This document shows, in pieces, positions 11,180 to 32,013 of a DNA stretch of 48,937 bases. Position numbers and translations under genes: made by a program. The DNA is from Desulfococcaceae bacterium. Lineage in GTDB: Bacteria > Desulfobacterota > Desulfobacteria > Desulfobacterales > Desulfosalsimonadaceae. Positions within the stretch are counted from its first letter, which is position 1. Each line of letters begins with the position of its first letter. Location of the stretch: contig JAQYVU010000025.1 of NCBI GenBank assembly GCA_030145385.1, positions 1 to 48,937 of the forward strand. The letters are read 5' to 3'. The notes beneath the pieces are model-generated. The model did no database searches. It was not told the origin of the DNA and saw nothing but the letters and a program-made list of their open reading frames with translations.

Positions 11180-11839
11180 ATGGCGGTAAAGAAGAAAATG
11201 GAGGCCCGAAAACGGCAGATAATAGGGGTGGCGGCCAAGGTGTTTGCGGGAAAAGGGTTTCAGGAAGCGACCATTTCAGAGATCGCGCAAAAAGCCAAGA
11301 TTTCCGAAGCGTCTATTTATGAATATTTTACCACAAAAGAAGGATTGCTGTTCTCAATTCCCGCAGAATCAGCCAAGGAAATCTTTGACTTAATGGAATT
11401 CCATTTAAAGCTCATTCGGGGCGCGGCAAATAAACTGCGTTCCATTGTGTTTCTTTTTATGCACTCATACCAGAACCATGCGGAGTTTGCTTCCATTATC
11501 ATGTTGATTTTAAAGCATAACAAGCGGTTTCTGGAAACCGAAGGGCACCTGGTGATCCGCCAGGGCATTAAAAATATTAATAAGGTGATTGAAGAAGGGG
11601 TTGACTCCGGCGAGTTTCGCAAAGACCTCAATCCATATCTGGTCCGGTCGATAATTATCGGAACCATTGAACATCTGGTCACCAACTGGATCATGACCGG
11701 CCGGCCGGAAAATCTGGAAGAATTCGTTGACCCGATGATTGACTGTATTATTGAAGGAATTCAAAGCCGGCCCAGTGAACCGGTTCATTGGAGTATGAGG
11801 AAAATGCCGCTGGAAGTAAAAAATAATGATGAGAGTTAA
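11180..11839 (+). CDS. TetR/AcrR family regulator of the downstream acyl-CoA cluster
   Basis: The ATG at 11180 is preceded by GAAAGGAATGAA; a TTG 13 codons upstream (11141) is a weaker start. 219 residues. The helix-turn-helix is clear (AAKVFAGKGFQEATISEIA, KISEASIYEYFTTKEGLL), and the C-terminal domain resembles FadR/YsiA-like TetR proteins that respond to acyl-CoAs. It is followed after 108 bp by the carboxylase genes and lies first in the cluster, so it probably controls it. Target and ligand are inferred from position. Confidence 0.87.
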   Translation: MAVKKKMEARKRQIIGVAAKVFAGKGFQEATISEIAQKAKISEASIYEYFTTKEGLLFSIPAESAKEIFDLMEFHLKLIRGAANKLRSIVFLFMHSYQNHAEFASIIMLILKHNKRFLETEGHLVIRQGIKNINKVIEEGVDSGEFRKDLNPYLVRSIIIGTIEHLVTNWIMTGRPENLEEFVDPMIDCIIEGIQSRPSEPVHWSMRKMPLEVKNNDES

Positions 11840-11947
11840 ACCCTGCTCCAATGTTGGGTGGTTTTAGCGGAAAAAATCGACGGGCAACTTTAAAAAATTA
11901 AACAAACAAAGTGGCACTATAAATATTTTGTGAGAAGGAAAGAGACG

Positions 11948-13564
11948 ATGGATGTTATTGAAAGTAAGATCGATGTCAATTCCGAAAGCTATAAGAAAAA
12001 TGTTCAGGATATGACCGCCCTGGTTGAAGATCTGAACAGGGAACTTGACATTGCCATGAATCAGCGTTCTCAAAAGGCGCTTGACCGGCAAAAGGAGTCC
12101 GGAAAAATCCCGGCAAAAAAGAAGCTGGAACTGCTGCTGGACAAAAACACCCCATTTCTGGAAATTGCCCCCCTGGCCGCAAAGGGCATGTATGACGGCA
12201 AGATTCATAAAGCAGGCGTTATCATCGGTATCGGTATGATTGAAGGCCGCGAATGCATGATCACTCTTAATGACGCCACCATTAAAGGGGGTTCCATCTA
12301 CCCCATGGGGGTCAAGAAATCATTAAGATGTCAGGCGATTGCCATGGAAAACCGGCTTCCCCTGATATCCCTGCTCGATTCAGCCGGTGCGTATCTGCCC
12401 ATGCAGTCGGAAATTTTCCCGGACTTAGATGACGGCGGCAGGATATTTTACAACCAGGCCATGATGTCTAAAATGGGTGTCGCCCAGATTGTGGGGGTGA
12501 TGGGGCTTTGTACGGCGGGCGGTGCTTACGGGGCTGCCATGTGTGATGATATTGTTCACGTCAAAGGACACGGCGCCATTTTTCTGGGCGGCCCCCCCCT
12601 GGTCAAGGCTGCCACCGGTGAAGAGGTCACTGCCAATGACCTGGGCGGGCCCGAACTTCATTGCAGTGATTCCGGTGTGTCTGATTATTATGCGGAAGAT
12701 GATCCGCATGCCATCCAGATCATCCGGAGTATTGTCAAAAATCTGCCGGCAAATGAAAAATCAAAGCTCACGATGGAAGAACCGGAACCGCCCTTGTATG
12801 ACCCAAAAGAATTGTATGGGATCGTGAGCCCGGACCTGACGAAACCCTATGATTGCCGGGAAGTGATTGCCAGAATCGTGGACGGCAGCCGGTTTCTGGA
12901 ATTCAAGGAAATGTACGGTCCAACCCTGGTGACCGGATGGGCCCATATTCACGGGTTTCCGGTGGGTATTTTGGCCAACAACGGCATTTTGTTTTCCGAC
13001 AGCGCCCAGAAGGCCACTCAGTTTATCCAGTTGTGCGATAAACGAAAAATTCCGCTTTTGTTTCTTCAGAATATCAACGGATTTATCGTGGGCAGCCAGT
13101 ATGAACGCGGCGGGATTACCAAAGACGGGCATAAAATGGTCAACGCGGTGTCAACTGCCACGGTTCCCAAATTTACGGTTGTGGTGGGCGCGTCTTTCGG
13201 GGCCGGCAATTACGCCATGTGCGGCCGGGCTTATTCACCGAGATTCATGTGGATGTGGCCCAACGCCCAGATCGGTGTGATGGGCGGCGAGCAGGCGGCC
13301 GGTGTTCTGGAAACCATCACCAATGATCAGCGGGCAAGACTCGGTCAGCCCCCCATGACTGACGAAGAAGTTGAGTTTATCAAGGGATCGGTTATTGAAA
13401 ACGCACGCAAGGAAGGAAACGCTTATTACGCGACTTCCCAGTTATGGGATGACGGTATTATCGATCCGGTAAAGACAAGAGATGTTCTGGGGCTTGCCAT
13501 TTCCGCGTCGCTCAATGCTCCACTTCGAGATGACACATACGGCTTCGGTGTCTTCCGAATGTGA
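11948..13564 (+). CDS. Acyl-CoA carboxylase carboxyltransferase (beta) subunit, methylcrotonyl/geranyl-CoA-carboxylase-like
   Basis: 538 residues from the ATG at 11948 (GAAGGAAAGAG upstream; an in-frame GTG at 11930 is rejected). It shows both crotonase-fold halves of a biotin-dependent carboxyltransferase. The segments LLDSAGAYLPMQSEIFPD, the GGPPLVKAATGEEVTANDLGG region (read in parts) and GGEQAAGVLE follow the MCC/GCC beta-subunit pattern more than PCC. It transfers CO2 from carboxybiotin to an acyl-CoA, in this group a beta-methyl-branched enoyl-CoA. With the biotin carboxylase and carrier genes behind it, it makes a three-gene carboxylase. Substrate is inferred. Confidence 0.88.
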   Translation: MDVIESKIDVNSESYKKNVQDMTALVEDLNRELDIAMNQRSQKALDRQKESGKIPAKKKLELLLDKNTPFLEIAPLAAKGMYDGKIHKAGVIIGIGMIEGRECMITLNDATIKGGSIYPMGVKKSLRCQAIAMENRLPLISLLDSAGAYLPMQSEIFPDLDDGGRIFYNQAMMSKMGVAQIVGVMGLCTAGGAYGAAMCDDIVHVKGHGAIFLGGPPLVKAATGEEVTANDLGGPELHCSDSGVSDYYAEDDPHAIQIIRSIVKNLPANEKSKLTMEEPEPPLYDPKELYGIVSPDLTKPYDCREVIARIVDGSRFLEFKEMYGPTLVTGWAHIHGFPVGILANNGILFSDSAQKATQFIQLCDKRKIPLLFLQNINGFIVGSQYERGGITKDGHKMVNAVSTATVPKFTVVVGASFGAGNYAMCGRAYSPRFMWMWPNAQIGVMGGEQAAGVLETITNDQRARLGQPPMTDEEVEFIKGSVIENARKEGNAYYATSQLWDDGIIDPVKTRDVLGLAISASLNAPLRDDTYGFGVFRM

Positions 13565-13702
13565 TGGCTGCATAAAAAGTCCAATTTCTGCGTTGCGCTT
13601 GATTCTTCGCGTCTTCAACGTATGAAAAATAAGAATCGTCGCTCAGGATTTGCGACGCCTTGCCAATTTTATTAAGATTTGGTGAACTTTTTTTTTGCCA
13701 TC
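13563..13702 (+). repeat. Palindromic element, copy 1 (type 2)
   Basis: Starts inside the stop codon of the carboxyltransferase gene (TGATGGC) and is bounded by GATGGC/GCCATC. Core: CTGCGTTGCG, GATTCTT, TCAACGTA, then AAGAATC, CTCAGGATTTGCG and GACGCCTTG. GATTCTT pairs with AAGAATC and the outer AAAAAGTCCAA pairs with the TTGGTGAACTTTTT side. Confidence 0.65.
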
Positions 13703-13733
13703 GAAAGCTGACTTTTTTACAGGAATAATAAAA

Positions 13734-15227
13734 ATGTTTAAAAAAATACTCATCGCAAACAGAGGGGAGATAGCCCTTCGGGTGATCAATACCTGCCGGG
13801 ATATGGGGGTGAAAACCGTGGCGGTTTATTCGGATGCGGATAAATTGGCACTGCATGTGCTGGCTGCGGATGAAGCGTTTTACTTAGGGGCTTCCGAACC
13901 GGCCCAAAGTTATCTGAATATGGATAAAATAATTGATGCCGCAAAAACCACCGGTGCCCAGGCCATTCATCCGGGGTACGGCTTTTTGGCTGAAAACAGC
14001 GAGTTTGTTGAAAAATGCGACCAGCAGGGTGTTGTGTTTATCGGACCGCCGGCCAAGGTAATCAAGGATCTCGGCGATAAAATCACGTCCCGCAAAATAA
14101 TGGTCAACAGCGGTGTACCGGTAACACCGGGGTTGACCAGTACGGAAGCGGATCCCGGCGTCATGAGCGTGGAAGCTGAAAAAATCGGGTATCCCGTGCT
14201 CATTAAAGCCACAGCCGGCGGGGGCGGCAAAGGAATCCGGATTGTTCATTCGTCTGAAGAGATGGCCGATGCCTGCGCGGCGGCTTCCCGCGAAGCCGTC
14301 AATGCATTTGGCAACGGTGAAATCTATCTGGAAAAGTTTTTCACCAAAGCCCGCCATATCGAGTTTCAGGTGCTGGCAGATAAATTCGGCAACACCATTC
14401 ATCTGCTGGAAAGAGAATGCTCCATTCAAAGAAGGCACCAGAAAATCATTGAAGAAACCCCGTCTTTTGTTATGACTCCGGCGCTCAGGCAGGAAATGGG
14501 CAAGGCTGCGGTGACGGCTGCTAAAGCATCCGGGTATGTTAACGCGGGAACTGTTGAATTTTTACTGGATGAAAATAATAAATTTTATTTCCTGGAAGTC
14601 AATACCCGCCTGCAGGTGGAGCACCCGGTAACGGAAATGATCACCGGTGTTGACCTGGTCCGCTGGCAGCTTGAAATTGCATATGGCAAAGAACTGACAC
14701 TCAAACAGGAAGATATCGCAGGCCGCGGCCATTCCATTGAATGCCGGATTTATGCCGAAGACCCGGAAAATGATTTTTTCCCGTCACCCGGAACAATATC
14801 GTTTTTAAAGGAACCGACCGGGCCGGGCATCCGCAATGACTGCGGGGTGTATTCAGAGTTTGAAGTGCCTGTGGATTATGATCCGATTCTTTCAAAATTG
14901 ATTGTTCATGCGCAAACCAGGGACCTTGCGATTGCCAAAATGATCAAGGCATTAAAGAGCTATATTGTGATCGGCGTGAAAACACCCATTGATTTTTTGA
15001 TGGATGTCTTAAAATCAGAGCCGTTTATCTGCGGAGAAGTTTTTACGGATTTTATTGAAACCCATTTTGAAAACTGGCAGCCGGACATGTCCGATGCCGA
15101 CCTTGCCCGGATCGCTTTTGTGATCGATGAAATGTGCGGCAATCGAAAGGCAAAGAAACTGGTTTGTGCAAAAGATGCGATGCCGACACCCTGGCAGACA
15201 TTAGGCAGTTGGCGGCATGGTCTTTAG
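13734..15227 (+). CDS. Biotin carboxylase (alpha) subunit of acyl-CoA carboxylase, without carrier domain
   Basis: 497 residues from the ATG at 13734 (AGGAATAATAAAA upstream). N-terminal KILIANRGEIALRVI, the ATP-grasp glycine loop IKATAGGGGKGIR (about residue 160), ECSIQRRHQKIIEE and the catalytic EVNTRLQVEHPVTE (about 290) are all intact. It carboxylates biotin using ATP and bicarbonate. Most PCC/MCC alpha subunits continue into a BT and a biotinyl domain; this one stops after the BC domain plus ~45 residues, and the carrier is encoded separately just downstream. Confidence 0.92.
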   Translation: MFKKILIANRGEIALRVINTCRDMGVKTVAVYSDADKLALHVLAADEAFYLGASEPAQSYLNMDKIIDAAKTTGAQAIHPGYGFLAENSEFVEKCDQQGVVFIGPPAKVIKDLGDKITSRKIMVNSGVPVTPGLTSTEADPGVMSVEAEKIGYPVLIKATAGGGGKGIRIVHSSEEMADACAAASREAVNAFGNGEIYLEKFFTKARHIEFQVLADKFGNTIHLLERECSIQRRHQKIIEETPSFVMTPALRQEMGKAAVTAAKASGYVNAGTVEFLLDENNKFYFLEVNTRLQVEHPVTEMITGVDLVRWQLEIAYGKELTLKQEDIAGRGHSIECRIYAEDPENDFFPSPGTISFLKEPTGPGIRNDCGVYSEFEVPVDYDPILSKLIVHAQTRDLAIAKMIKALKSYIVIGVKTPIDFLMDVLKSEPFICGEVFTDFIETHFENWQPDMSDADLARIAFVIDEMCGNRKAKKLVCAKDAMPTPWQTLGSWRHGL

Positions 15228-15257
15228 TAATGAAACCATGTGTATATTCAGGTTTTT

Positions 15258-15377
15258 AAGGCAAAGAAAAAAGTCCAAATTTAAGGCGCGTGAGTTCTGA
15301 GGAGAGAAGCGTACTTAATGTACGTTGATCGACGAAGAATGAATCGCAACGCAGAAGTAGGGCTTTTTGCGAAGCCA
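15258..15377 (-). repeat. Palindromic element, copy 2 (type 2, inverted)
   Basis: On the minus strand: GGCTTCGCAAAAAG, CTGCGTTGCGATTCATTCTTCG, GATCAACGTA, AAGTACGC, CTCCTCAGAACTCACGCGCCTTAAATTTGG and a terminal AAAAAAG...GCC arm. It is closely related to copies 1 and 8 and separates the biotin carboxylase and carrier genes. Confidence 0.65.
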
Positions 15378-15401
15378 TTATGTCGATGGAGGAAATATCC
15401 A

Positions 15402-15908
15402 GTGGAATACAGGCTGAAAATAAAAGAAGAGACCCTTTCCGTGGAAGTGGAAAATGACGGTGAGGAAAAAATCAAGGCCGTTATCGGCGAAAAAGAGTTT
15501 GATGTCAGCTACACGGCGGTGAATGACCACCGGATTCATCTGGTTGTAAACGGTCAGGGAGTAAATGCCTATGTGAGTGACCAGGGTGACGGAAAAATTA
15601 TTGCGATCAAGGGGAAATCCTATTTTGTTTGCGATGCGGACCTGCTGGAACAAAGCAAAACAAGGAAAAAAGGGCCGGGATCAAATCCTCAGGAAGTCAC
15701 GCCGCCAATGCCTGCGGTTGTCATATCCGTTGCGGTAGTCGAGGGAGATGTCGTGGAAAAAGGGCAGGCGGTTGTTATTGTATCAGCCATGAAAATGGAA
15801 ACATCCCTGGCTGCGCCGTTTAACGGGACGGTTCAAAAAGTAAATGTCGCTGAAGGGGATAAGGTCATGCCCGGCGATATTCTTGTGGATATTGAAAAGG
15901 AAGAATGA
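15402..15908 (+). CDS. Biotin carboxyl carrier protein of acyl-CoA carboxylase (BCCP)
   Basis: I choose the GTG at 15402: GGAGGAAATATCCA precedes it directly, whereas the longer in-frame ATG (15318) would translate the palindromic repeat. 168 residues. The first ~100 form a beta-rich part like the BT domain of PCC/MCC alpha subunits. After a charged linker (SKTRKKGPGSNPQ) comes the biotinyl domain with the biotinylated Lys in SAMKMET. It carries CO2 between the BC and CT subunits of the same cluster. A BCCP split from the BC subunit is known in several bacteria and archaea. Confidence 0.9.
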   Translation: MEYRLKIKEETLSVEVENDGEEKIKAVIGEKEFDVSYTAVNDHRIHLVVNGQGVNAYVSDQGDGKIIAIKGKSYFVCDADLLEQSKTRKKGPGSNPQEVTPPMPAVVISVAVVEGDVVEKGQAVVIVSAMKMETSLAAPFNGTVQKVNVAEGDKVMPGDILVDIEKEE

Positions 15909-16034
15909 TGGCGTCGTCAAAAGCCCCATCTACTGCGTTGCAGCGTTTTTTCAGACTCTCAATATACTATTTGTATTATCTCAAGTCTGAAAAAACGCTA
16001 CGCCTTGTATATGGAACTTTTTACTTAACCATCT
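15907..16034 (+). repeat. Palindromic element, copy 3 (type 1)
   Basis: Begins inside the BCCP stop codon (TGATGGCG). Outer imperfect arms GATGGCGTCGTCAAAAG / its complement near 16000-16034. Inside are CTGCGTTGC, a perfect 16-bp stem (AGCGTTTTTTCAGACT with AGTCTGAAAAAACGCT), a loop with ATAC-TATTT-GTAT, and ACGCCTTG. Confidence 0.75.
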
Positions 16035-16183
16035 GGATTCTTGCAAATAAGTCATTCATATTCATCATCGTTGTTTGAAATGATTGACAGCTTATTGGAT
16101 GATACAGTCGTGAAATGTGACCATTAGAACCTTTTACCGATTTATCAGGAAATAGATTAAAATAAAATCCAAGGAGTTTTATC

Positions 16184-16963
16184 ATGTCCGGAAAAGACCT
16201 GCTTTACGAAGTCAAAGACAATATCGGATATATCACTATCAACCGTGAAAAAAACCGGAATTCCATCAGCGCTCAGGCAATTGATCTGTTTATGAAATAT
16301 CTGGATCAGGCTGAAAAAGACGATGCGGTGCGGGTTGTTTGCGTAACTGGTGCCGGTGAAAAAGCCTTTTGTTCCGGGGCGGACCTTGGCGGTGCCATGA
16401 GTGCGGAAGACGGCGGTAAAAATCAGGCATTTCAAAATTATGCCAACCTGTTAAAGCGCCTTGCAGGGTATTCAAAACCCACGGTGGCAAAGGTAAACGG
16501 GTACTGCCTGGCCGGGGGGACGGGATTCATGCTGGCCTGTGATATTGTGATTGCGCGTAATAATGCCAAGTTCGGCACCCCGGAAGTCAATGTGGGACTT
16601 TTCCCCATGATGATCGGCGCCTTGATTTTCAGAAATGTGTTAAAGAAAAAAGCCATGGAAATGGTACTGCTCGGCGAAAAACTTTCAGCTGCCCAGGCCC
16701 AGGAAATGGGCCTGATCACCCGGTCGGTGCCGGCGGACAATCTGGACGAAACAGTAGATACAATTCTTAAAAGCCTGGCCGCCAAAAGTCCCATTGGAAT
16801 GAAAATCGGAAAAGACGCTTTTTATGCCATGCAGGATATGGGGTTTGAAGATGCTCTGGATTTTCTTTGCCAAAAACTGGCCGAAGTCGCTGCAACCGAA
16901 GATGCCGTGGAAGGGATTACGGCGTTTATTGAGAAGCGGCCGCCGGTATTTAAAGGCAAATGA
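16184..16963 (+). CDS. Enoyl-CoA hydratase/isomerase family protein (LiuC/AtuE-like)
   Basis: 259 residues, usual crotonase length. AAGGAG lies upstream of the ATG. Oxyanion-hole segments are FCSGADLGG (about 65) and LAGGTGFMLACD (about 107). The second catalytic Glu is kept in GTPEVNVGLFP (about 130), but the Glu that classical crotonases have at the equivalent of rat E144 (GGGCEL) is Gly here (AGGTGF). A Gly at this place is known in some methylglutaconyl-CoA-type hydratases. In context it would hydrate a 3-methylglutaconyl-CoA-like product of the carboxylase. Confidence 0.88.
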   Translation: MSGKDLLYEVKDNIGYITINREKNRNSISAQAIDLFMKYLDQAEKDDAVRVVCVTGAGEKAFCSGADLGGAMSAEDGGKNQAFQNYANLLKRLAGYSKPTVAKVNGYCLAGGTGFMLACDIVIARNNAKFGTPEVNVGLFPMMIGALIFRNVLKKKAMEMVLLGEKLSAAQAQEMGLITRSVPADNLDETVDTILKSLAAKSPIGMKIGKDAFYAMQDMGFEDALDFLCQKLAEVAATEDAVEGITAFIEKRPPVFKGK

Positions 16964-17088
16964 TGGCGTCGTCAAAAATCCCATCTACTGCGTTGTAGCG
17001 ATTTTTCTGCCCCTCAATATACTACATGTATTATCTTGGGCCAGAAAAATCACCACGCCTTGTATATGGAATTTTTAACTTAGCCCTC
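16962..17088 (+). repeat. Palindromic element, copy 4 (type 1)
   Basis: Starts inside the hydratase stop codon (TGATGGCG). It shares outer arms with copy 3 but its inner stem is different: GCGATTTTTCTG pairs with CAGAAAAATCAC around a loop with ATAC-TACAT-GTAT. CTGCGTT and ACGCCTTG flanks are conserved. Confidence 0.75.
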
Positions 17089-17123
17089 TTGAGATATTTA
17101 CTGATTTATTAAGGATATTTTCA

Positions 17124-18890
17124 ATGAACAACCATATTCATAAAGACAAACTCATTATTGCAAACTGCAGCGGATATTTGGGAGACAAACTGTCTGCGGC
17201 AAAAGAACTTGTTGAAGGCGGCGAAATCCATGTGCTGACCGGTGATTACCTGGCGGAACTGACCATGGCGCTCTTGTTTCGGATGAAAATGAAAGCCCCT
17301 GAAAAAGGATATGCCACCACATTTCTCAAGCAGATGAATGACGTGATGGGGCCTTGCCTGGATAAAAATATTAAAATTGTGGCAAATGCCGGGGGCTTAA
17401 ATCCAAAAGGCCTTGCCGCAGAACTTGAAAAAATTGCCGAACAACTCGGTATTCATCCCAAAATCGCCTTTATTGAAGGCGATGACCTGCTGCCCCGGAT
17501 TCAGGAACTTCAGGAACAGGGGGAAATATTTACGCATTTGGATAAAGGCATCAGCCTCAAGGAAGCCGGTGCCATGCCGATTACCGCCAATGCTTATCTG
17601 GGCGGTTGGGGAATCACCAAAGCGCTGAACGAAGGCGCGGATATTGTCATCGGCGGCCGGCTGGCGGATGCGGCCCTGGTCTCCGGACCCAGTGCCTGGA
17701 AATTCGGGTGGAAGGAAGATGACTGGGATCGATTGGCCGGTGCCTATGTTGCCGGGCATATTATCGAATGCGGTGCCCAGGCCACGGGCGGGAATTATTC
17801 GTTTATTGAAGAAGTCCCCAGCTTTAAGAACGTGGGATATCCTATTGCCGAAATGCATGAGGACGGTTCGTTTGTGATTACCAAACATCCCGGTACGGGC
17901 GGACTGGTTTCCGTGGGAACAGTCACCGCCCAGCTGTTGTATGAAATCCGGGAACCGGCATACCTGACACCGGATGTAAAGGCGCGCTTTGACACGATTG
18001 ATATATCCCAGCAGGAACCTGACCGGGTTTTGATTGATGGTGTTAAAGGAGAACCGCCCACTGATTCGGCAAAAGTATGCATTAACAATCTTTTTGGGTA
18101 CCGAAATTCCATGACTGTCGTGCTCACCGGTCTTGATATTGAGAAAAAGGCGGAAATTGTGGAAGAAACCCTTTTTGACCTTTTGGGCGGCAAAGACCAT
18201 TTCGCCTTTACCGACGTCCAGCTGATCAGGATTGACAAGGCTAATCCCGAACATAATGATGTCGCGTGTGCGCATTTAAAAATTTCACTCATGGACCCGG
18301 ATCAGAAAAAGGTGGGAAAACTGTTTTCTGCCAAGCTGGTGGAAATGGCATTATCCAGTATACCGGGCTTTACCATGACCAGCCCGCCTTCAAATGGTGC
18401 TCCGGCGCTTCAGCACTGGCCGACATTGGTGAAAAATGAATTTCTGGAACACAAGGTTTATCTGAATGGTTCGGAATTTACTGTCAAGCCGGTGGGCGTT
18501 TATCCTGAAATAAAGACTATCAGCCCGGTTCCAGTGGATTTGGTCGATATCTCTATAAAAAATATTCGAAAAATACCCTTTGGCCGGTTGTTTGCCACCC
18601 GATCCGGTGACAAAGGCGGCAATGCCAATCTCGGAGTGTGGGCAAAAAATATTGAGGCGTATTCATTTTTAAACCGGTTTCTAACGATTGAAAAATTAAA
18701 AGATTTGCTGCCGGATATGGACCCTTTTGACATTGAACGTTATGAATTGCCCAACCTTTTGGCGATTAATTTTTATATAAAAGGGGTTCTGGGTGAAGGC
18801 GTGGCGGCATCCGTCAGAAATGATCCCCAGGCCAAGACACTTGGTGAATATCTGCGGGCTAAAATCATAGAGGCGCCGGATATTTTATAA
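17124..18890 (+). CDS. AtuA family protein (acyclic terpene utilisation, DUF1446)
   Basis: 588 residues. The N-terminal ~450 residues match the AtuA/DUF1446 family: IIANCSGYLGDKLSAAKEL, LTGDYLAELTM, NAGGLNPKGLA, DIVIGGRLADAALV and HIIECGAQATGGN. The C-terminal ~110 residues form the associated AtuA-like domain (RLFATRSGDKGGNANLGVW). AtuA is required for growth on citronellol/geraniol in Pseudomonas but its reaction is not established. Here it sits between the hydratase and two acyl-CoA dehydrogenases, in line with an Atu/Liu-like pathway. AAGGATATTTTCA precedes the ATG. Confidence 0.88.
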   Translation: MNNHIHKDKLIIANCSGYLGDKLSAAKELVEGGEIHVLTGDYLAELTMALLFRMKMKAPEKGYATTFLKQMNDVMGPCLDKNIKIVANAGGLNPKGLAAELEKIAEQLGIHPKIAFIEGDDLLPRIQELQEQGEIFTHLDKGISLKEAGAMPITANAYLGGWGITKALNEGADIVIGGRLADAALVSGPSAWKFGWKEDDWDRLAGAYVAGHIIECGAQATGGNYSFIEEVPSFKNVGYPIAEMHEDGSFVITKHPGTGGLVSVGTVTAQLLYEIREPAYLTPDVKARFDTIDISQQEPDRVLIDGVKGEPPTDSAKVCINNLFGYRNSMTVVLTGLDIEKKAEIVEETLFDLLGGKDHFAFTDVQLIRIDKANPEHNDVACAHLKISLMDPDQKKVGKLFSAKLVEMALSSIPGFTMTSPPSNGAPALQHWPTLVKNEFLEHKVYLNGSEFTVKPVGVYPEIKTISPVPVDLVDISIKNIRKIPFGRLFATRSGDKGGNANLGVWAKNIEAYSFLNRFLTIEKLKDLLPDMDPFDIERYELPNLLAINFYIKGVLGEGVAASVRNDPQAKTLGEYLRAKIIEAPDIL

Positions 18891-19122: not shown

Positions 19123-20280
19123 ATGGCATCAACAAAAAATAGCATCAGTGCTCAGGAATATTTTACTAAAGAACATCAGCAACTGCGGATGGCGCTCAGG
19201 GATGTTATCAAAAAGGAGGTGCTCCCGAATATCAATGAATGGGAAGAATCCGGAGCGTTTCCCGTATCCCTGTATCCTCTTTTTGGGGAACTTGGTTTTT
19301 TGGGAATCGGCTATCCGGAAGAAGTCGGCGGCACCGGCGGGGACATTTTTGATACGGTGGTTGCCAACGAAGAGCTGATGCGATCCGGATCCGGCGGATT
19401 TGCCGCCGGTATTGGGTCTTTAAATATTGCGCTGCCGCCCATCATAAAAAAGGGGACAGACGAACAAAAAGAGCGTTTTGTTAAACCGGTTTTACAGGGC
19501 AAACGGATTGCCGCTTTAGGTATTACGGAGCCGGGCGGCGGGTCGGATGTGGCAAATATTCAGACCACGGCAGTAAAAGACGGTGACAGTTATATTGTCA
19601 ACGGAGCCAAAACATTTATCACCAGCGGTGCTCGCGCTGATCAGCTGACCTGTGCCGTTCGCACCGGTGACCCCGGGGCCCACGGCATTAGTTTTCTGCT
19701 TATCGAGAAAGATACGCCGGGATATTCGGTGGGTAAGAGTCTTAAAAAAACAGGATGGTGGGCATCGGATACGGCTGAGATATTTTTTGACAATTGCCGT
19801 GTGCCAGCGCCGAATTTAATCGGCGAAGAAAATATGGGTTTTTATACCATTATGGAAAATTTCCAGATGGAAAGGCTCCAGCTTTGCATCATGGCAAATA
19901 TGACGGCTGAAATGGCCCTTGAAGAAGCGCAGAAATACACCAAAGAGCGCAAGGCATTCGGAAAGCCCCTGAAAGGATTTCAGGTGACCCGGCACAAACT
20001 GGTGGATATGGCAACGCTTGTTGAAGTCAGTCGGGAATACACTTATCGGGTAGCTGCGAAGATGAATGCCGGCATCGACCAGGTCAAGGAAATCTCCATG
20101 GCCAAGAATTTTGCCTGCAGCGTCAGCGACCGGGTCACCTATGATGCGGTGCAGCTTTTTGGCGGATACGGCTATATGCGTGAATATCTGGTGGAACGGC
20201 TCTACCGGGATAATCGCATTTTATCCATTGGCGGCGGAACTACAGAGATTATGAAAGAAATTATCTCCAAGTTGATGTAA
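19123..20280 (+). CDS. Acyl-CoA dehydrogenase (isovaleryl/citronellyl-CoA-dehydrogenase-like) 1
   Basis: 385 residues, standard ACAD length; ATG after AGGGGGCGTGGA. FAD-binding signatures ITEPGGGSDVA and TFITSGARAD are present, as is the C-terminal QLFGGYGYMREYLVERLYRD. The usual medium/short-chain catalytic Glu position reads SIGGGTTEI (no Glu), while helix G has QMERLQL, the place of the catalytic Glu in isovaleryl-CoA and long-chain ACADs. It oxidises an acyl-CoA to the 2-enoyl-CoA, passing electrons to ETF. Branched substrate is inferred from this and from the carboxylase neighbours. Confidence 0.9.
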   Translation: MASTKNSISAQEYFTKEHQQLRMALRDVIKKEVLPNINEWEESGAFPVSLYPLFGELGFLGIGYPEEVGGTGGDIFDTVVANEELMRSGSGGFAAGIGSLNIALPPIIKKGTDEQKERFVKPVLQGKRIAALGITEPGGGSDVANIQTTAVKDGDSYIVNGAKTFITSGARADQLTCAVRTGDPGAHGISFLLIEKDTPGYSVGKSLKKTGWWASDTAEIFFDNCRVPAPNLIGEENMGFYTIMENFQMERLQLCIMANMTAEMALEEAQKYTKERKAFGKPLKGFQVTRHKLVDMATLVEVSREYTYRVAAKMNAGIDQVKEISMAKNFACSVSDRVTYDAVQLFGGYGYMREYLVERLYRDNRILSIGGGTTEIMKEIISKLM

Positions 20281-20375
20281 TGCGAAAACAGGTATTCTGC
20301 CACAATTATTAACGGAAAAAGAATTTTACCAAATTTTATATTGAGTATAAACTATTCTAAGAAAAGGGGTAACAC

Positions 20376-21527
20376 ATGGGCAGCGAAATTTATTTTAGCA
20401 AAGATCATGATCTGGTGCGCAAGGCCGTCCGGGATTTTGTTAACAAAGAGATTAATCCTTATGTGGATGAGTGGGAGGAAAAAGGTATTGCCCCGCTGCA
20501 TGAATTGTTTAAAAAAATGGGGGATCTGGGATTCCTCGGCATCCGTTATGATGAAAAATACGGCGGGGAAGGTCTTGATTACTGGTATGAAACCGTTGTC
20601 ATGGAAGAATTTGCCCGTATTCATTGCGGCGGCGTTCCCATGGCCATTGCGGTTCAAATGAGCATGGCCACGCCGGCTATTGATGAATTCGGCAGTGAAT
20701 ACTTAAAGGAAACTTATTTAAAACCGGCCATTAAAGGGGATATGGTTTCTGCCATTGCCGTGACCGAGCCGGATGCCGGGTCTGATGTGGCGGCGTTGAA
20801 AACATTCGCAAAAAAAGATGGTGATTCATATATCTTAAGCGGTTCTAAAACTTACATCACTAACGGCACCCAGGCGGATTTTCTCACTTTGCTGGCCCGG
20901 ACCAGCGATGAACCGGGATATCATTCATTTGGTTTGTTTGTGGTTCCTACGAACCTGCCCGGATTTAATGTCAGTAAAAAGCTGGATAAAATGGGCATGC
21001 GAAGCAGCGATACCGCAGAGCTGTATTTTGATGACATGCGGATTCCGGCGGAAAATCTGATCGGAAGGGAAGGGGAAGGATTTATCCAGCAGATGATGCA
21101 GTTTCAGCATGAACGGTTTGCCGTGCTTCCTTTGACGTATATCAGCGCTAAAGAGATTATTGATGAAACTGTTGAATACCTCAAGGGGCGGATTGTATTC
21201 GGCAAACCCCTGATCAAAAAGCAGGTCCTGCGTCACCGGCTCGTGGAATGGCTGAGTGAAATTGAATGTCTTAAACAGCTGACCTATCATATCGTCCGCA
21301 TGAAAATGGCCGACCAGGATGTTTCAAAAGAAATTTCCATGGGAAAACTCTTCGGCGGGAGTCTGCTGAGTAAGGTGACTGACGGATGCCTTCAGATGTA
21401 CGGCGGGATCGGATTGATGAATGAAATGCGAATATCCCGGATTTACCGGGATTCCCGTCTGCTGTCCATCGGCGGGGGGGCCAGTGAGGTTATGTCCGAC
21501 GTCATCGCCAAACTCGAGGGATATTAA
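20376..21527 (+). CDS. Acyl-CoA dehydrogenase (isovaleryl/citronellyl-CoA-dehydrogenase-like) 2
   Basis: 383 residues; AAGGGG precedes the ATG. It is a divergent paralogue of the preceding gene: VTEPDAGSDVA and TYITNGTQAD for FAD, QHERFAV at the isovaleryl-type catalytic Glu position, and SIGGGASEV instead of the short-chain Glu motif. The helix before the C-terminus reads MYGGIGLMNEMRISRIYRD. Two dehydrogenases may act at two steps of one pathway (for example different chain lengths after each cycle) or on different substrates. ETF genes are not in the window. Confidence 0.9.
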   Translation: MGSEIYFSKDHDLVRKAVRDFVNKEINPYVDEWEEKGIAPLHELFKKMGDLGFLGIRYDEKYGGEGLDYWYETVVMEEFARIHCGGVPMAIAVQMSMATPAIDEFGSEYLKETYLKPAIKGDMVSAIAVTEPDAGSDVAALKTFAKKDGDSYILSGSKTYITNGTQADFLTLLARTSDEPGYHSFGLFVVPTNLPGFNVSKKLDKMGMRSSDTAELYFDDMRIPAENLIGREGEGFIQQMMQFQHERFAVLPLTYISAKEIIDETVEYLKGRIVFGKPLIKKQVLRHRLVEWLSEIECLKQLTYHIVRMKMADQDVSKEISMGKLFGGSLLSKVTDGCLQMYGGIGLMNEMRISRIYRDSRLLSIGGGASEVMSDVIAKLEGY

Positions 21528-21528
21528 C

Positions 21529-21614
21529 CTGATTCATCCATTTGCGGCGTTATAAGGGACTCGCGGTAGCACACTACAGCGTCGTCCCTTATGCCTTGCA
21601 ACTGAATGAATCAG
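21529..21614 (+). repeat. Palindromic element, copy 6
   Basis: Two bases after the dehydrogenase stop. Outer arms CTGATTCATCCATTTGC and GCAACTGAATGAATCAG pair at 15 of 17. Inner GGCGTT, perfect stem ATAAGGGAC/GTCCCTTAT, a third small hairpin GTAG-CACA-CTAC, then GCCTTGC. Same architecture as the other copies with unrelated arm sequence. Confidence 0.75.
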
Positions 21615-21642
21615 ATCAATATTGGATTTGATGGGGAAAATA

Positions 21643-22443
21643 ATGAAATTCATTTGTAAAGATCTGGCGGATGAATATGCGGCCTTGGATGATATGGTCA
21701 AAGACCTTGATGCCGACGGCTGGCAGACAGTGACTCCTTTTTATAACTGGACGATCAAGGATGAAATAAGCCATTTGGCATACTTTGACAAGACCGCCTG
21801 CCTGTCGGCCATTGATTCGGATGCCTTTGCCGCGGAATTTGAAAAAATTCTTCAAGGCATTACAAGCTATGATGATGTATACCGAAACGTCAATGCCATG
21901 GGCGGGGCAATGTCCGATGCGGACCTGCTGGCATGGTGGCGAAAAGAACGGGCCCAACTGGTGGTAGCGTTTGGATCCCTGAAACCCGATACCCGGGTTC
22001 CCTGGTACGGCCCTGCCATGAGTGCAAGAAGTTCTGCAACCGCCCGTATTATGGAAACCTGGGCGCACGGCCAGGATGTTGCAGATGCCTTGCAGGTGAA
22101 CCGACCTGCTACGGATCGCCTCAGGCATATTGCCTTTCTGGGGGTGTCGACGTTTAAATGGAGTTTTAAAAACCGGCAGCTGGCGGTGCCGGATCCGGCG
22201 GTTCGCGTGGTGCTGAATAGTCCAACGGATGCGTTGTGGGTTTGGGGGCCGGAAGACGCGGAAAATTTGGTCAGCGGGTCGGCAGAAGACTTTTGTCTGG
22301 TTGTTACCCAGCGGCGCAATGTATCGGATACCGGATTAAAAATCCAGGGCGACATTGCCGGCCAGTGGATACAGATTGCCCAGGCCTTTGCCGGTCCGCC
22401 GGCAGATGGCCCGGCTCCGGGAGTAAGAAAAAATATTGCTTAA
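21643..22443 (+). CDS. TIGR03084-like metal-binding protein (DinB/maleylpyruvate-isomerase fold)
   Basis: The ATG at 21643 has GGGG 6 nt upstream; an ATG at 21631 is also in frame. About 266 residues. The N-terminal DinB-like helices contain GWQTVTPFYNWTIKDEISHLAYFD with the first candidate metal His, and METWAHGQDVADAL supplies another His. The C-terminal half (PVRVVLNSP-like region, WVWGPEDAENLV, LVVTQRRNVSDTGL, IAQAFAGPP) matches the TIGR03084 family I know mainly from actinobacteria, where it occurs near AtuA, carboxylase and ACAD genes (from memory). Possibly a thiol- or CoA-dependent enzyme; the reaction is unknown. Confidence 0.75.
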   Translation: MKFICKDLADEYAALDDMVKDLDADGWQTVTPFYNWTIKDEISHLAYFDKTACLSAIDSDAFAAEFEKILQGITSYDDVYRNVNAMGGAMSDADLLAWWRKERAQLVVAFGSLKPDTRVPWYGPAMSARSSATARIMETWAHGQDVADALQVNRPATDRLRHIAFLGVSTFKWSFKNRQLAVPDPAVRVVLNSPTDALWVWGPEDAENLVSGSAEDFCLVVTQRRNVSDTGLKIQGDIAGQWIQIAQAFAGPPADGPAPGVRKNIA

Positions 22444-22568
22444 ATCAGCTTGTTTTTGAGAAAATACGGTTCTGCAAGTTAAGAATACAAAAATAAAACC
22501 GGCCTGTTGAGTTCCATGCCAGTCGTTGTTGCGGAGAGATCATCCACAATTAAATGAGGAGGGATTCA

Positions 22569-23447
22569 ATGGATTTAAGCAATAAGGTCGTTGTTACCTG
22601 TGCCATCACCGGTGTTCTCACCAACCCGGGGAAATTTAACGTTCCGGTAACCCCTGCAGAGATGGCGGAAGCCACCCGGCAGGCCTTTGACCAGGGTGCT
22701 TCCATCGTCCATGCCCATTTCAGGTCACAGCAGCCGGGCATGGGAATGTGGCCCACATGGGATTTAAAAGAGGTCGGCGATATACTGACCGCCATTCGGC
22801 ACCGGGTACCGAAGATGATTATTAATATGAGTACCGGAGTTATGGGTGCCAATATTTCAGGACCCATGGCATGTCTGGCAAAGTTTAAACCGGAAATGGC
22901 CGCGTGCAATGCCGGATCTTTGAATTATCTGAAAATCCGCAAAGACGGCCAATGGGCCTGGCCCCCGATCCTTTTTGACAACCCGGTTGAAAAGGTGACG
23001 CAATTTACCGACACCATGACTGCGCATAAAATTGTTCCTGAATTTGAATGTTTTGACACCGGTATTGTTCGCAGCGTCGGGATGTTCAAGGCAAACGGTA
23101 TGTTCTCCGGCAATCCCCATCTGTCCTTTGTCATGGGGGTCGACTCGGGCATGCCCGCACGATGCGACCTGCTGCCAATTTTAAAGGATGAACTGCCGGA
23201 AAATTCTCACTGGCAGGTAATTGCCACAGGGTCCGGCCGTGAAAAACTCTGGGAACTTCACCGGGCCGCAATTGAGCTTGGCGGAAATGTCCGGACCGGT
23301 CTTGAAGACACGTTTTATCTGCCAGATGGTAAAAAAGCCGAAAATAACGGGCAGCTGGTAGAAGCCCTGGTAAAGATCATCCGGGAGCAGGGCAAGGAAC
23401 CGGCCAGTCCGGAAGAGGCGCGGGCGATATTAGAAATTAAGAGGTAG
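22569..23447 (+). CDS. Beta-keto acid cleavage enzyme (BKACE, DUF849 family)
   Basis: 292 residues from the ATG at 22569, which has GAGGAGGG 5-12 nt upstream (the ATG at 22554 lies before that site). TIM-barrel enzyme with the zinc-binding HAHFR (the family usually reads HxHxR, about residue 45) and a later GLEDTFYL that supplies the Glu of the active site. BKACEs condense a beta-keto acid with acetyl-CoA and cleave it to acetoacetate plus a new acyl-CoA, or run the reverse. Here it may process the terminal keto acid or acetoacetate of the acyl-CoA pathway. Substrate is not predictable from what I can see. Confidence 0.88.
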   Translation: MDLSNKVVVTCAITGVLTNPGKFNVPVTPAEMAEATRQAFDQGASIVHAHFRSQQPGMGMWPTWDLKEVGDILTAIRHRVPKMIINMSTGVMGANISGPMACLAKFKPEMAACNAGSLNYLKIRKDGQWAWPPILFDNPVEKVTQFTDTMTAHKIVPEFECFDTGIVRSVGMFKANGMFSGNPHLSFVMGVDSGMPARCDLLPILKDELPENSHWQVIATGSGREKLWELHRAAIELGGNVRTGLEDTFYLPDGKKAENNGQLVEALVKIIREQGKEPASPEEARAILEIKR

Positions 23448-23546
23448 ACTTCCGGACAATTGATTTGGCTGCGTTATCAGTCGGAGATATACGAAACAGT
23501 ATTATCTCCTCTTTCCGGCCTTGCCAAATCAATTGTCTGAAAGTCT
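23446..23546 (+). repeat. Palindromic element, copy 7
   Basis: Overlaps the BKACE stop codon (TAGACTT). Outer arms AGACTTCCGGACAATTGATTTGGC and GCCAAATCAATTGTCTGAAAGTCT pair almost perfectly over 24 bp. Inside are CTGCGTT, GGAGATA/TATCTCC, ATAC-n6-GTAT and GGCCTTG. Confidence 0.75.
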
Positions 23547-23554
23547 TTATTTGT

Positions 23555-23629
23555 AGGTCGGGATTCTTTCCCGACAAATGGAACATGCCAATCAGTAAAT
23601 TTGGTGCCGGGTAAGAAACCCGGCCTTTG
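23555..23629 (+). repeat. Double-hairpin dispersed repeat
   Basis: Two small hairpins, GTCGGGATTCTTTCCCGAC and GCCGGGTAAGAAACCCGGC, which are also complementary to each other over ~21 bp (4 mismatches). This is the type of short dispersed palindrome common in bacterial chromosomes. It lies just upstream of the flavoenzyme gene. Confidence 0.6.
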
Positions 23630-23683
23630 CAGGAATTCATCAATCAATACGTAAGAGACTTTATTCATATAAAGGAAAAACAC

Positions 23684-25684
23684 ATGTATCAGAATCTGCT
23701 GAGTCCGATTACAATCAACAAGCTGGAAATCAGAAACCGGGTGGTCTATCCCTCCTTAGGGTTGCTGTATTCCTATGATGGAACATTAAATGACCGGTAT
23801 TACGAATATTTTCGTGAAAAAGCCCGCGGCGGCACCGGACTGGTGACCGTAGGGCCTGTGGGGATCGACTTTATCGGTTCCGGCGGTATCATTCCCATGC
23901 TCGACAGTGATGATGCCATTCCCGGGTTTAAGAAGATGACGTCAGTAATCAAAGAAGAAGGGGCCCGGGCCTGGATTCAGTTGTTTCACGCCGGCGCCTA
24001 TTCATATCCCATGCTGCTCAAAGGGGATGCGCCCATTGCGCCGTCCGCCGTTTACTCCAGGTATTCCAAAGCCATGCCCCGGGAAATGACCATCGAAGAT
24101 ATTGAAAAAGTCCGCGAAGCATTTGTCAGTGCCGCAGCAAGAGCGCAGGAAGCCGGGTTTGACGGGGTCGAGATCCTCGGCTCCGGCGGCTACCTCATCA
24201 CCCAGTTTCTTTCTTCGATTAAAAACCAGCGGACCGACGCATACGGCGGCAGCTTTGAAAATCGGGTCCGGTTCCCCAAAGAGGTGATCGAACGCACCCG
24301 AGAACGTCTGGGCGCTGATTTCCCCCTGACCATCCGCATGGCCGGCAATGATTTTGTGACCGGCAGCAATACGGATAACGAAACAAAGGAATTTGCGAAA
24401 GTATACGAAGCAGCCGGTGTCGATGCCATTAGTGTGACCGGCGGCTGGCATGAAACCCATGTCCCCCAGCTGCCGGCCAGTCTGCCCCAGTCCGGTTTTG
24501 CGTTTCTGGCATATAATATCAAAAAAGAGGTCTCAGTGCCGGTGATGGCCTCCAACCGGATTTCTTCTCCCGAGACCGCCGAAAAACTGCTCAAAGATGG
24601 CTATGCCGACATGGTGAGTATCGGCCGGGGGCTGATCGCCGATCCTCACTGGGTCAACAAGGCCATGGTCGGCCGATCCGATGAAATCCGGCCCTGTGTG
24701 GCATGCCTTCAGGGCTGCATGGACAATGTCATGACCGGGCAGCCGGTCACATGTGTGGCAAATCCCCTGGCCGGTTACGAAGGAGAGCGGATAATTGAGA
24801 AATGTAAAACTCCGAAAAATGTTATGGTAGTGGGTGCGGGTCTGGCCGGACTGGAGGCAGCGGTCACTGCGGCCACGGCAGGCCACTCGGTGGATTTGTA
24901 TGAAAAAAATGATGAAATCGGAGGGCAGCTATGGGTTGCCGGCGCGCCGCCCCATAAAGGAGAATTGTTTAAATTTGTTCGGTATTATCAGGCGATGCTC
25001 TGGAAACACAATGTTTCCCTGCATTTGAACACCAGGGTGGATGATCGGCTGATCAGGGAAAAAAATCCGGATTTTCTGATTGTGGCCGAAGGCGCGGAAC
25101 CTTTGCTCCCGCCGATTGACGGCATGGATGATCCGAGTGTGATATCCGCCTGGGATCTGCTCAAAGAAGACAGGCTGCTGGGTGATGAAGTGGCTATTAT
25201 CGGCGGCGGCGCCGTAGGCCTTGAAACTGCATTAAAGGTTGCCGCCAAAGGAACCATCACGCCCGAAATCCTGCATTTCCTGTTTACCTATGAAGCTGAA
25301 AGCGTTGAACGGCTTCGGGAACTTATGTTTCAGGGGACGTCGAACGTCACAGTGTTTGAAATGCTCCCCAAAGTCGGAAAAGATGTGGGCAAATCGACTA
25401 AATGGGTATTGATGAGTGATCTGGATAAATACGGGGTGGCCTTCACCACCGAGGCGAAGGTGGTTTCAATTAAAAATGGTTTGCTGACATATGAAAAAGA
25501 CGGCAAAACACATCAGCAACAGTTTGATCATATCATTAACGCAGCCGGTTCAAAGTCCGTTAAAAACATTGCTGAAAAAATTGAAAAAATGAACATTCCA
25601 TTTGCCGTGATCGGTGACGGGGCACAACCGGGAAAAATTAACCACGCGGTTCATGGTGGTTTTCTGGCAGCTCTTGAGATTTGA
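23684..25684 (+). CDS. 2,4-dienoyl-CoA reductase-like NADH:flavin oxidoreductase (FadH/Old Yellow Enzyme family)
   Basis: 666 residues from the ATG at 23684 (AAAGGAAAAACAC upstream). N-terminal FMN TIM barrel (LLSPITINKLEIRNRV, RTDAYGGSFENR, SIGRGLIADP), then the 4Fe-4S cysteines CVACLQGC and a fourth Cys 11 residues on, then an FAD domain (VVGAGLAGLEAA, about 390) and a NAD(P)H domain (IIGGGAVGLETA). FadH proteins reduce 2,4-dienoyl-CoAs. The usual catalytic His-containing motif (HGAHGYL) reads GSGGYL here, so a different substrate is possible. Suits an unsaturated, terpene-like acyl-CoA pathway. Confidence 0.88.
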   Translation: MYQNLLSPITINKLEIRNRVVYPSLGLLYSYDGTLNDRYYEYFREKARGGTGLVTVGPVGIDFIGSGGIIPMLDSDDAIPGFKKMTSVIKEEGARAWIQLFHAGAYSYPMLLKGDAPIAPSAVYSRYSKAMPREMTIEDIEKVREAFVSAAARAQEAGFDGVEILGSGGYLITQFLSSIKNQRTDAYGGSFENRVRFPKEVIERTRERLGADFPLTIRMAGNDFVTGSNTDNETKEFAKVYEAAGVDAISVTGGWHETHVPQLPASLPQSGFAFLAYNIKKEVSVPVMASNRISSPETAEKLLKDGYADMVSIGRGLIADPHWVNKAMVGRSDEIRPCVACLQGCMDNVMTGQPVTCVANPLAGYEGERIIEKCKTPKNVMVVGAGLAGLEAAVTAATAGHSVDLYEKNDEIGGQLWVAGAPPHKGELFKFVRYYQAMLWKHNVSLHLNTRVDDRLIREKNPDFLIVAEGAEPLLPPIDGMDDPSVISAWDLLKEDRLLGDEVAIIGGGAVGLETALKVAAKGTITPEILHFLFTYEAESVERLRELMFQGTSNVTVFEMLPKVGKDVGKSTKWVLMSDLDKYGVAFTTEAKVVSIKNGLLTYEKDGKTHQQQFDHIINAAGSKSVKNIAEKIEKMNIPFAVIGDGAQPGKINHAVHGGFLAALEI

Positions 25685-26139
25685 TGGATGAAAATATTCA
25701 AATCGCCGGCTTAATTGACCAAAGCAGTATCCGAGAATTAAACAGCCTGTTAAATGTCATTGCTGTTAAGGATTTTTACTGGCATAAGGCTCCATACATA
25801 AGGGCCGCGATTACGGAAAAGCGGTGTTTTGTCATAAAAAATGATTCCATGATCATGGGGGCCATGATCATGGAATTCAGAGTTCCGGATGAACAATACC
25901 CCCGGCCCTCGCTGGCAATCGGCACATTAAGCGTGCGGCCCGGTTTCAGAAGAAACGGACTCGGTATTCTGCTTGTTTCTCATGCCAGAGCAATGGCCGG
26001 ACAAGAGAAAAAACGGCTTTACGTGGAATCCTTTCTTGAATTCAGGCAGTTGAGTTTTTATCAACGGCTCGGGTTTAAGGAAGGTTCCCAAAAAGAATAT
26101 CACGGCAAGCCGTATCATGTTTTGTTTATCGATCCATAA
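25684..26139 (+). CDS. GNAT family N-acetyltransferase
   Basis: The ATG at 25684 overlaps the preceding stop codon (TGATG), so the two genes are translationally coupled. 151 residues. The acetyl-CoA-binding motif A is clear (LSVRPGFRRNGLGILLVSHARA) and motif B reads FYQRLGFKEGSQ. It transfers an acyl group from acyl-CoA to an amine; the acceptor is unknown. Its tight link to the flavoenzyme makes it the last gene of the acyl-CoA cluster. Confidence 0.82.
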   Translation: MDENIQIAGLIDQSSIRELNSLLNVIAVKDFYWHKAPYIRAAITEKRCFVIKNDSMIMGAMIMEFRVPDEQYPRPSLAIGTLSVRPGFRRNGLGILLVSHARAMAGQEKKRLYVESFLEFRQLSFYQRLGFKEGSQKEYHGKPYHVLFIDP

Positions 26140-31988: not shown

Positions 31989-32013
31989 CAAATTAAAGGA
32001 CACATAACCCGGT

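Follow-up and report, generated by a model that had tools for sequence, protein, structure and literature searches.

A plus-strand run of genes at positions 11141–26139 of the window (the whole 48,937-nt stretch of contig JAQYVU010000025.1, contig label C24, from Desulfococcaceae bacterium GCA_030145385.1) raises the question of which acyl-CoAs its products degrade and by which step these are cleaved. The answer preferred here, at a probability of about 0.62, is that the run is an operon of a likely sulfate reducer for a carboxylation–hydration–retro-aldol route ("beta-decarboxymethylation"), acting on isoprenoid-type acyl-CoAs that carry a beta-methyl branch and exceed 3-methylcrotonyl-CoA in size. 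The genome hosting the window (5.24 Mb in 209 contigs) contains a dsrA match of 612 bits, which is over the cut-off and makes an anaerobic life with dissimilatory sulfur metabolism likely. An initial annotation, made from the bare sequence, had proposed that an apparent anaerobe degrades beta-methyl-branched acyl-CoAs by an Atu/Liu-like route; this proposal is supported, and the gene families that it named were all recovered on the plus strand by Pfam, NCBIfam and PDB matches (Table 1), the regulator open reading frame (ORF) beginning at 11141 instead of 11180 and a GNAT acetyltransferase, not mentioned before, standing at the end of the cluster.

In the proposed route, the acyl-CoA dehydrogenases would form a 3-methyl-2-enoyl-CoA, the carboxylase, composed of carboxyltransferase (CT), biotin carboxylase (BC) and biotin carboxyl carrier protein (BCCP), would add CO2 to the 3-methyl group, and the hydratase of the enoyl-CoA hydratase/isomerase family (ECH) would add water to give a 3-hydroxy-3-alkylglutaryl-CoA, which AtuA would cleave into acetate and a 3-oxoacyl-CoA. 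BKACE may provide a second exit, where free beta-keto acids, such as those from cleavage of the HMG-CoA lyase (HMGL) type, would react with acetyl-CoA to give a shortened acyl-CoA and acetoacetate. The FadH-like enzyme would clear 2,4-dienes of unsaturated chains, and 3-methylcrotonyl-CoA ends would pass to a separate Liu-type locus. The substrates, the order of the steps, the product split at the fourth step and the reaction of BKACE in this organism are what we infer from the comparisons below. Anoxic sediments commonly contain isoprenoid acids, which derive from chlorophyll side chains, terpenes and archaeal lipids.

By sequence, the window CT belongs to the branch of methylcrotonyl-CoA carboxylase (MCC) and geranyl-CoA carboxylase (GCC) and not to that of propionyl-CoA carboxylase (PCC), in agreement with the MCC/GCC-like assignment made initially. 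Its PDB matches give 648 bits to human MCC beta (8j4z, the best), 640 bits to Pseudomonas MCC beta, 457 bits to GCC beta (5ikl) and at most 259 bits to classical PCC-type chains; a chain named propionyl-CoA carboxylase beta (9tps) reaches 643 bits, but carries the MCC-type HFGR motif. According to the portion of PMC4673880 drawn on here, Phe191 of MCC beta clashes with geranyl-CoA and GCC has Gly162 at that place, MCC has a three-residue insertion directly before the Phe which is lacking in GCC, and swapping the pocket residue can shift substrate preference. The Phe191 column was assigned in this analysis by taking the F of HFGR as residue 191 of the human chain, where CTs of the type without insertion lack the three residues just before it. 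The window CT has DDGGR at the HFGR site and Gly169, the geranyl-CoA-type residue, in this column.

Across loci, the pocket residue tracks linkage to AtuA as against linkage to HMGL. The AtuA loci of the phylum and of a wider collection (an AtuA-alignment scan in which 80 named loci were listed of 586 matching candidates) hold 68 CTs covering the site, window included, all with Gly, Ala, Ser or Thr and none with Phe, while 6/6 CTs found in the HMGL loci of the phylum (14 examined, eight of them without a CT) have Phe. In named plasmid records (431 with a CT match, of which 60 were listed and 16 fetched, chosen for spread, plus three found through AtuA matches), Phe is present in 6/6 HMGL-linked CTs, and AtuA-linked CTs have a small residue in 4/6 and Phe in 2/6. 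Pooled, a small residue (G/A/S/T) occurs in 72/74 AtuA-linked CTs and Phe in 12/12 HMGL-linked CTs (Fisher p 6e-13, relatedness ignored). Left out of this count were L077 (site missing), four non-MCC/GCC CTs of L053 and L059, and a PCC-like CT of the window's own genome (L046); L119, a poor partial ORF, was retained. Phe-type CTs at which neither HMGL nor AtuA was detected are found in L211, L214–L216, L225 and L226. In a tree of 59 of the 96 CTs, the best topology needs two changes to the small residue, and at least two are needed in 97% of 200 bootstrap trees; two independent origins are not claimed, as a single origin was not rejected (AU p 0.375). The small-residue rule could serve to re-annotate many genes now called methylcrotonyl-CoA carboxylase. 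On Polaromonas sp. JS666 plasmid 2 (L224), an annotated cluster contains two Phe-type CTs together with HMGL, 2,4-dienoyl-CoA reductase and several acyl-CoA dehydrogenases.

An ordinary leucine/isovalerate (Liu) cluster using an unlinked HMGL would share gene families with the run, and an HMGL-like gene does occur elsewhere in the genome (C130:17970–18935, beside another CT; 183.5 bits, under the NCBIfam cut-off of 246), so that the earlier statement that no HMG-CoA-lyase-type gene is present is right for the cluster genes of the window and wrong for the genome. This gene, however, stands in a Liu-type row of its own, with dehydrogenase, hydratase, Phe-type CT and acetoacetate-CoA ligase genes (past the dehydrogenase the contig ends, and the stretch read gave no BC match), the window CT is without the Phe, and AtuA is found in genomes without a clear HMGL. 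Because of the separate locus, the window operon is probably dispensable for leucine, and the Liu reading, rejected on the pocket residue and the C130 locus, is given very little weight. 3-Methylcrotonyl-CoA from the end of an isoprenoid chain could enter the C130 locus.

AtuA is likely the lyase of the preferred route. It has no close solved relative in the PDB by sequence, but its AlphaFold model (pLDDT 88.9) superimposes on chain 9evf_A with Z 31.7 and rmsd 3.5 over 406 of 588 residues (model range 6–449), the next entry having Z 8.6, and Foldseek likewise matches 9evf at E 8e-19. The entry is titled "Citramalate lyase - ADP - pyruvate complex", and a profile search links AtuA to 9erq/9evf (E 2e-6) through a chain named "Acyclic terpene utilization AtuA family protein | Citramalate lyase, subunit A (cmlA)". 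Arg179, Asp182, Glu215 and Cys216 are invariant in 18 AtuA proteins and also present in CmlA in the profile alignment. The C-terminal part alone has no PDB match by sequence; in Foldseek, chain 9evf_B is listed too, with no range printed, and this part is probably CmlB-like. In a second fold list, many further rows span only about residues 324–430, so that other folds may apply as well. Citramalate lyase breaks the same kind of bond, converting a tertiary alcohol into acetate and pyruvate, and the CmlA-like fold is thus a structural reason for treating AtuA as a lyase. No paper on the 9evf enzyme was found in the open-licence literature, and 9erq and 9evf are known here by their entry and molecule names.

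A functional precedent is ThnQS, an AtuA-like enzyme of anaerobic naphthalene degradation reported to cleave an analogous tertiary alcohol in a 2025 review that partly cites unpublished work (PMC12016498, as far as its text was available). HMGL counts point the same way: in the 28 of 41 AtuA-matching genomes with long AtuA matches, the best HMGL-model match is at least 166 bits in 10 and at most 63.1 bits in 18, and HMGL was found near AtuA in 0/80 named loci listed and 0/27 phylum neighbourhoods. On the fold, ThnQS and these counts, AtuA is taken as the likely lyase, its activity being predicted. By analogy with ThnQS and with the Thauera pathway described in the accessible part of PMC4847356, it would release acetate and leave CoA on the 3-oxoacyl part. 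AtuA as a lyase is already known from the Atu and thn systems. The initially proposed "different cleavage step" stands in that such a step exists, with AtuA as its first candidate; the argument from a missing HMGL to BKACE fell, since no AtuA neighbourhood examined has a linked HMGL, AtuA is the likely lyase and an HMGL-like gene lies elsewhere in the genome. AtuA-like matches in two adjacent pieces (N- and C-terminal) were seen in G039, G075, G077 (C55), G137, G157, G206, G234, G271, G344 and G372, and these perhaps resemble separate lyase subunits.

The same precedent opens another reading, where the pathway takes an alicyclic substrate (a ring acid, or a side chain derived from a sterol or polycyclic aromatic hydrocarbon) in place of an acyclic isoprenoid, and carboxylase, hydratase and AtuA serve to open the ring or trim the side chain, in the manner of the naphthalene thn pathway. 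ThnQS comes from a sulfate-reducing culture (PMC12016498, same portion), and the second-best PDB match of the flavoenzyme is NCR (6qkg, E 2e-97). The best match, however, is the 2,4-dienoyl-CoA reductase 1ps9 (E 6e-114), to which the flavoenzyme is nearer, and the thn step, in the text seen of PMC12016498, is described without a biotin carboxylase, while carboxylase genes here belong to the most constant partners of AtuA; an alicyclic substrate is regarded as unlikely. NCR is presumably naphthoyl-CoA reductase. Cys357, Cys360, Cys364 and Cys376 of the flavoenzyme are taken to be its FeS cysteines, and Tyr189 and His275 the 2,4-dienoyl-CoA reductase pair. Under the isoprenoid reading, a 6-unsaturated chain would need 2,4-dienoyl-CoA reductase activity after shortening.

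AtuA matches occur in 41/395 genomes of the phylum, and the 80 listed loci include SAR324, Desulfobacterales, SAR86, Acidimicrobiia and Mycobacterium. Joint conservation in relatives had been named beforehand as a point on which the initial idea could fail, and it is supported: a carboxylase match lies within 9 kb of AtuA in 58/80 named loci listed and in 21/27 phylum loci. By family, the same distance holds CT in 51, BC in 56, ECH in 57, acyl-CoA dehydrogenase in 45 and TIGR03084 in 24 of the 80 loci, and CT in 19, BC in 17, ECH in 20, acyl-CoA dehydrogenase in 16 and TIGR03084 in three of the 27. The closest counterpart is a 19.9-kb locus of a second species of the genus (L048, G333), where the order from TetR to GNAT is preserved at 48–94% identity (GNAT 65%, in the same position), except that acyl-CoA dehydrogenase 1 is missing; the flanking window genes used as queries gave no match there, which fits the boundaries of the cluster. 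L075 (SAR324) and L076 (Desulfobacterales) are also window-like operons, and L076 has TIGR03084 and flavoenzyme genes in addition; homologues of acyl-CoA dehydrogenase 2, 73–92% identical, are present in the window-type operons L048, L075, L076, L077 and L227. In another genome of the same family, which has no AtuA match (L187, G134:C72), dehydrogenase 1, CT, BC, hydratase and TIGR03084 follow the order of L079 with AtuA absent between them.

The window BKACE belongs to a subfamily with 20 relatives (62–93% identity) in 21/395 phylum genomes. A CT or BC match lies within 6 kb in 14/21 loci, or 16/21 counting the window and L048, where CT and BC belong to the same run at a greater distance; of the five loci without a carboxylase link, two are contigs shorter than 6.1 kb. 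The HxH, Arg and Glu-Asp residues, which are presumably functional, are kept in all 21 aligned members (the L045 row was left out of this use of the alignment). An orthologous operon in L227, from a genome of the same order that has no AtuA match (G232), contains a ligase, CT (72%), BC (64%), BCCP (48%), ECH (66%), BKACE (77%), dehydrogenase 2 (75%) and TetR, and BKACE sits between ECH and dehydrogenase 2, the slot of AtuA elsewhere, with a 4-bp overlap with ECH. The CT of this operon has Gly at the pocket column and falls inside the window-type AtuA clade (support 96/94). BKACE can thus take the place of AtuA in the operon, and by its gene content the window has both. The reading of BKACE as an incidental neighbour was dropped, because it lies inside this operon and, in most of the other loci, close to carboxylase genes.

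The initial annotation counted BKACE as a part of the pathway, which the G232 operon independently supports; BKACE may perform the cleavage or act just after it. One possibility is that BKACE itself cleaves 3-hydroxy-3-alkylglutaryl-CoA, as a non-orthologous replacement for both AtuA and HMGL, with the two lyases coexisting in the window. The swap within an otherwise window-type operon and the residues retained in 21/21 members favour this, but the family reaction given in the consulted part of PMC6365646 is an acetyl transfer, where a beta-keto acid and acetyl-CoA yield an acyl-CoA and acetoacetate, the clean swap is seen in one genome only, and HMGL-model matches of at least 121 bits in 19/21 BKACE genomes, and of at least 160 bits in 13/21, could do the cleavage. 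Direct cleavage by BKACE is accordingly held to be improbable. HMGL gives acetyl-CoA and acetoacetate (PMC12016498, portion seen), so that HMGL acting on a longer chain would release a free beta-keto acid, which would be a natural BKACE substrate. With a loose threshold, HMGL-model matches occur in 19/21 BKACE genomes as against 5/23 AtuA genomes without BKACE (p 4e-6), six of the former being weak (121–152 bits); this association is only suggestive, because relatedness was ignored. It is tentatively proposed, at somewhat less than even odds, that beta-methyl-branched acyl-CoAs have a second cleavage branch in sulfate reducers, supplied by the carboxylase-linked BKACE subfamily and independent of AtuA, where BKACE either cuts 3-hydroxy-3-alkylglutaryl-CoA or takes the free beta-keto acid from HMGL, with acetoacetate as product and not acetate plus 3-oxoacyl-CoA; the window organism carries putative genes for both branches. 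BKACE in the slot of AtuA is a natural swap which hints at a second way to do this chemistry and by which the role of a large enzyme family, uncharacterised in part, can be tested directly. In the CT pair of L053, TIGR01117 scores about 450 bits, below the cut-off, and the pair is methylmalonyl-CoA-decarboxylase-alpha-like.

Several observations weigh against the route preferred here. The window CT keeps the three-residue insertion, an MCC mark in the part of PMC4673880 used, aligns ungapped with MCC beta at that site and has a better score to MCC than to GCC; window-type CTs keep this insertion. The pocket rule has exceptions, as two Phe CTs lie near AtuA (L220 and L221, in a second operon, the CT of the AtuA operon there having Gly), and the CTs of L219, L222 and L223 have Ala with no AtuA within 8 kb. 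No carboxylase match is present within 9 kb in 22/80 named and 6/27 phylum AtuA loci, many of them on short contigs, and no carboxylase is annotated within 12 kb in the atuA stretch of Sphingobium sp. TomMM7A. Thiolase, short-chain dehydrogenase and acyl-CoA ligase were not found among the cluster genes scanned. For BKACE, 15/21 genomes of the subfamily have no AtuA match, and G083 has partial AtuA matches only; nine loci have paired CT genes, 27–33% identical to the window CT (L053, L059, L230, L233, L234, L235, L236, L239 and L240, often with an enoyl-CoA hydratase); and at 160 bits or more the HMGL association shrinks to 13/21 as against 5/23 (p 0.013, relatedness ignored).

The profile libraries do not decide on the labels "methylglutaconyl-type" and "isovaleryl-type": in the rows listed, neither the hydratase nor either dehydrogenase reached the cut-off of an NCBIfam model. 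The window hydratase lacks the first crotonase Glu and has the second, at the positions taken here for these two columns. This pattern recurs in the 71 AtuA-linked hydratases (within 6 kb, same strand), where Glu is found in the first column in none and in the second in 65, and where 62/71 combine Gly or Leu at the first with Glu at the second; both Glu residues are present in 11/40 other hydratases. Both window dehydrogenases carry an ER motif in the region which is presumed to hold the base of isovaleryl-CoA dehydrogenase, and a Gly near the C-terminus where the C130 dehydrogenase has Glu, residues whose roles are likewise assumed. The TIGR03084 protein contains His51, Glu145 and His149, which are taken to be the metal-ligand pattern of maleylpyruvate isomerase.

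Among known systems, the Atu pathway (Pseudomonas; anaerobic in Thauera linaloolentis according to the part of PMC4847356 seen) resembles the window in AtuA, a GCC-type pocket residue, hydratase, acyl-CoA dehydrogenase and a TetR-type regulator, and in Thauera also in proceeding without oxygen. The window differs in its separate BC and BCCP, its MCC-type CT insertion and the added TIGR03084, BKACE and FadH-like proteins, and families of AtuB/AtuG (citronellol/citronellal dehydrogenases) and AtuH (ligase) were not found among the genes scanned at 11141–27345. AtuA–TIGR03084–carboxylase clusters of Actinobacteria, such as those on plasmids pDK3 of Rhodococcus sp. DK180 and pMYCCH.01 of Mycolicibacterium chubuense NBB4, share CT, BC, hydratase, TIGR03084, AtuA, dehydrogenase and TetR with the window, but have a BC of about 670 aa, which on this length probably includes the carrier domain, a CT without the insertion, an AMP-ligase inside the cluster and no annotated BKACE; in NBB4, CT and BC are on the opposite strand. 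The Liu pathway shares the dehydrogenase, biotin-dependent carboxylase and hydratase, whereas its HMGL-linked CTs have Phe and the window has Gly, AtuA and no linked HMGL. ThnQS, as covered by the seen part of PMC12016498, resembles the window AtuA as an AtuA-type lyase acting on a tertiary alcohol beside a CH2-CO-CoA arm, and differs in being two genes with a cyclic substrate. CmlA shares the fold of residues 6–449, at 16% identity, and differs in its separate chains and small substrate. The BKACE family, including 3-keto-5-aminohexanoate cleavage enzyme, shares PF05853 and the HxH, Arg and Glu-Asp residues with the window protein, whose subfamily is set apart by its link to acyl-CoA carboxylases. 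In the open-licence literature, no description of a carboxylation route for isoprenoid acids in sulfate reducers, no paper on geranyl-CoA carboxylase in sulfate reducers and, by title, no isoprenoid paper on BKACE or beta-keto acid cleavage was found. Three features look new: the combination as it occurs in likely sulfate reducers, the rule that ties the pocket residue to the gene neighbourhood, and the alternation of AtuA and BKACE.

Table 1. Genes of the cluster, from ORF calls and Pfam/NCBIfam scans (window coordinates).
Feature	Position	Strand	Matches
TetR-family regulator, YsiA-like C-terminal domain	11141..11839	+	PF08359, PF00440; Bacillus FadR model 118.6 bits, under cut-off 200
Carboxyltransferase (CT, beta subunit), MCC/GCC branch; Gly169 at MCC Phe191 column, 3-residue insertion kept	11930..13564	+	PF01039 (Carboxyl_trans 469 bits)
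Biotin carboxylase (BC), 510 aa, no carrier domain matched	13695..15227	+	PF00289, PF02786, PF02785
Separate biotin carboxyl carrier protein (BCCP), AMKM motif, M-K-M from residue 158	15318..15908	+	PF00364
Enoyl-CoA hydratase/isomerase family (ECH), proposed hydratase of carboxylated enoyl-CoA	16184..16963	+	PF00378
AtuA, proposed retro-aldol lyase; CmlA-like N-terminal part, C-terminal part (ferredoxin-like domain) probably CmlB-like	17124..18890	+	PF07287 (535 bits), PF23544
Acyl-CoA dehydrogenase 1, presumed isovaleryl-type active-site pattern	19123..20280	+	PF00441, PF02770, PF02771
Acyl-CoA dehydrogenase 2, presumed isovaleryl-type active-site pattern	20376..21527	+	PF00441, PF02770, PF02771
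TIGR03084 metal-binding protein (DinB/MDMPI superfamily)	21622..22443	+	TIGR03084 319.6 bits, cut-off 247.95
BKACE, carboxylase-linked subfamily; His53, His55, Arg247, Glu251	22554..23447	+	PF05853, 273.9 bits, gathering score 24.8
FadH-like 2,4-dienoyl-CoA reductase-type flavoenzyme	23627..25684	+	PF00724, PF07992
GNAT acetyltransferase, 4-bp overlap with flavoenzyme gene	25681..26139	+	PF13508, PF00583

The genes of the run are separated by gaps of 90–275 bp, apart from the single 4-bp overlap, so that transcription as one unit is possible. Upstream of the TetR gene, a search for operators gave only weak, AT-rich repeats. The 275-bp gap between BCCP and ECH may be a later insertion, because the BCCP and ECH genes of the sister species overlap slightly; this gap contains a perfect 16-nt inverted repeat with a 26-nt loop (15942–15999). 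Beyond the cluster, positions 29874–34667 of the window encode a fusion of aspartyl-tRNA synthetase with a GatC-like domain and, after it, a GatA-like amidase and GatB.

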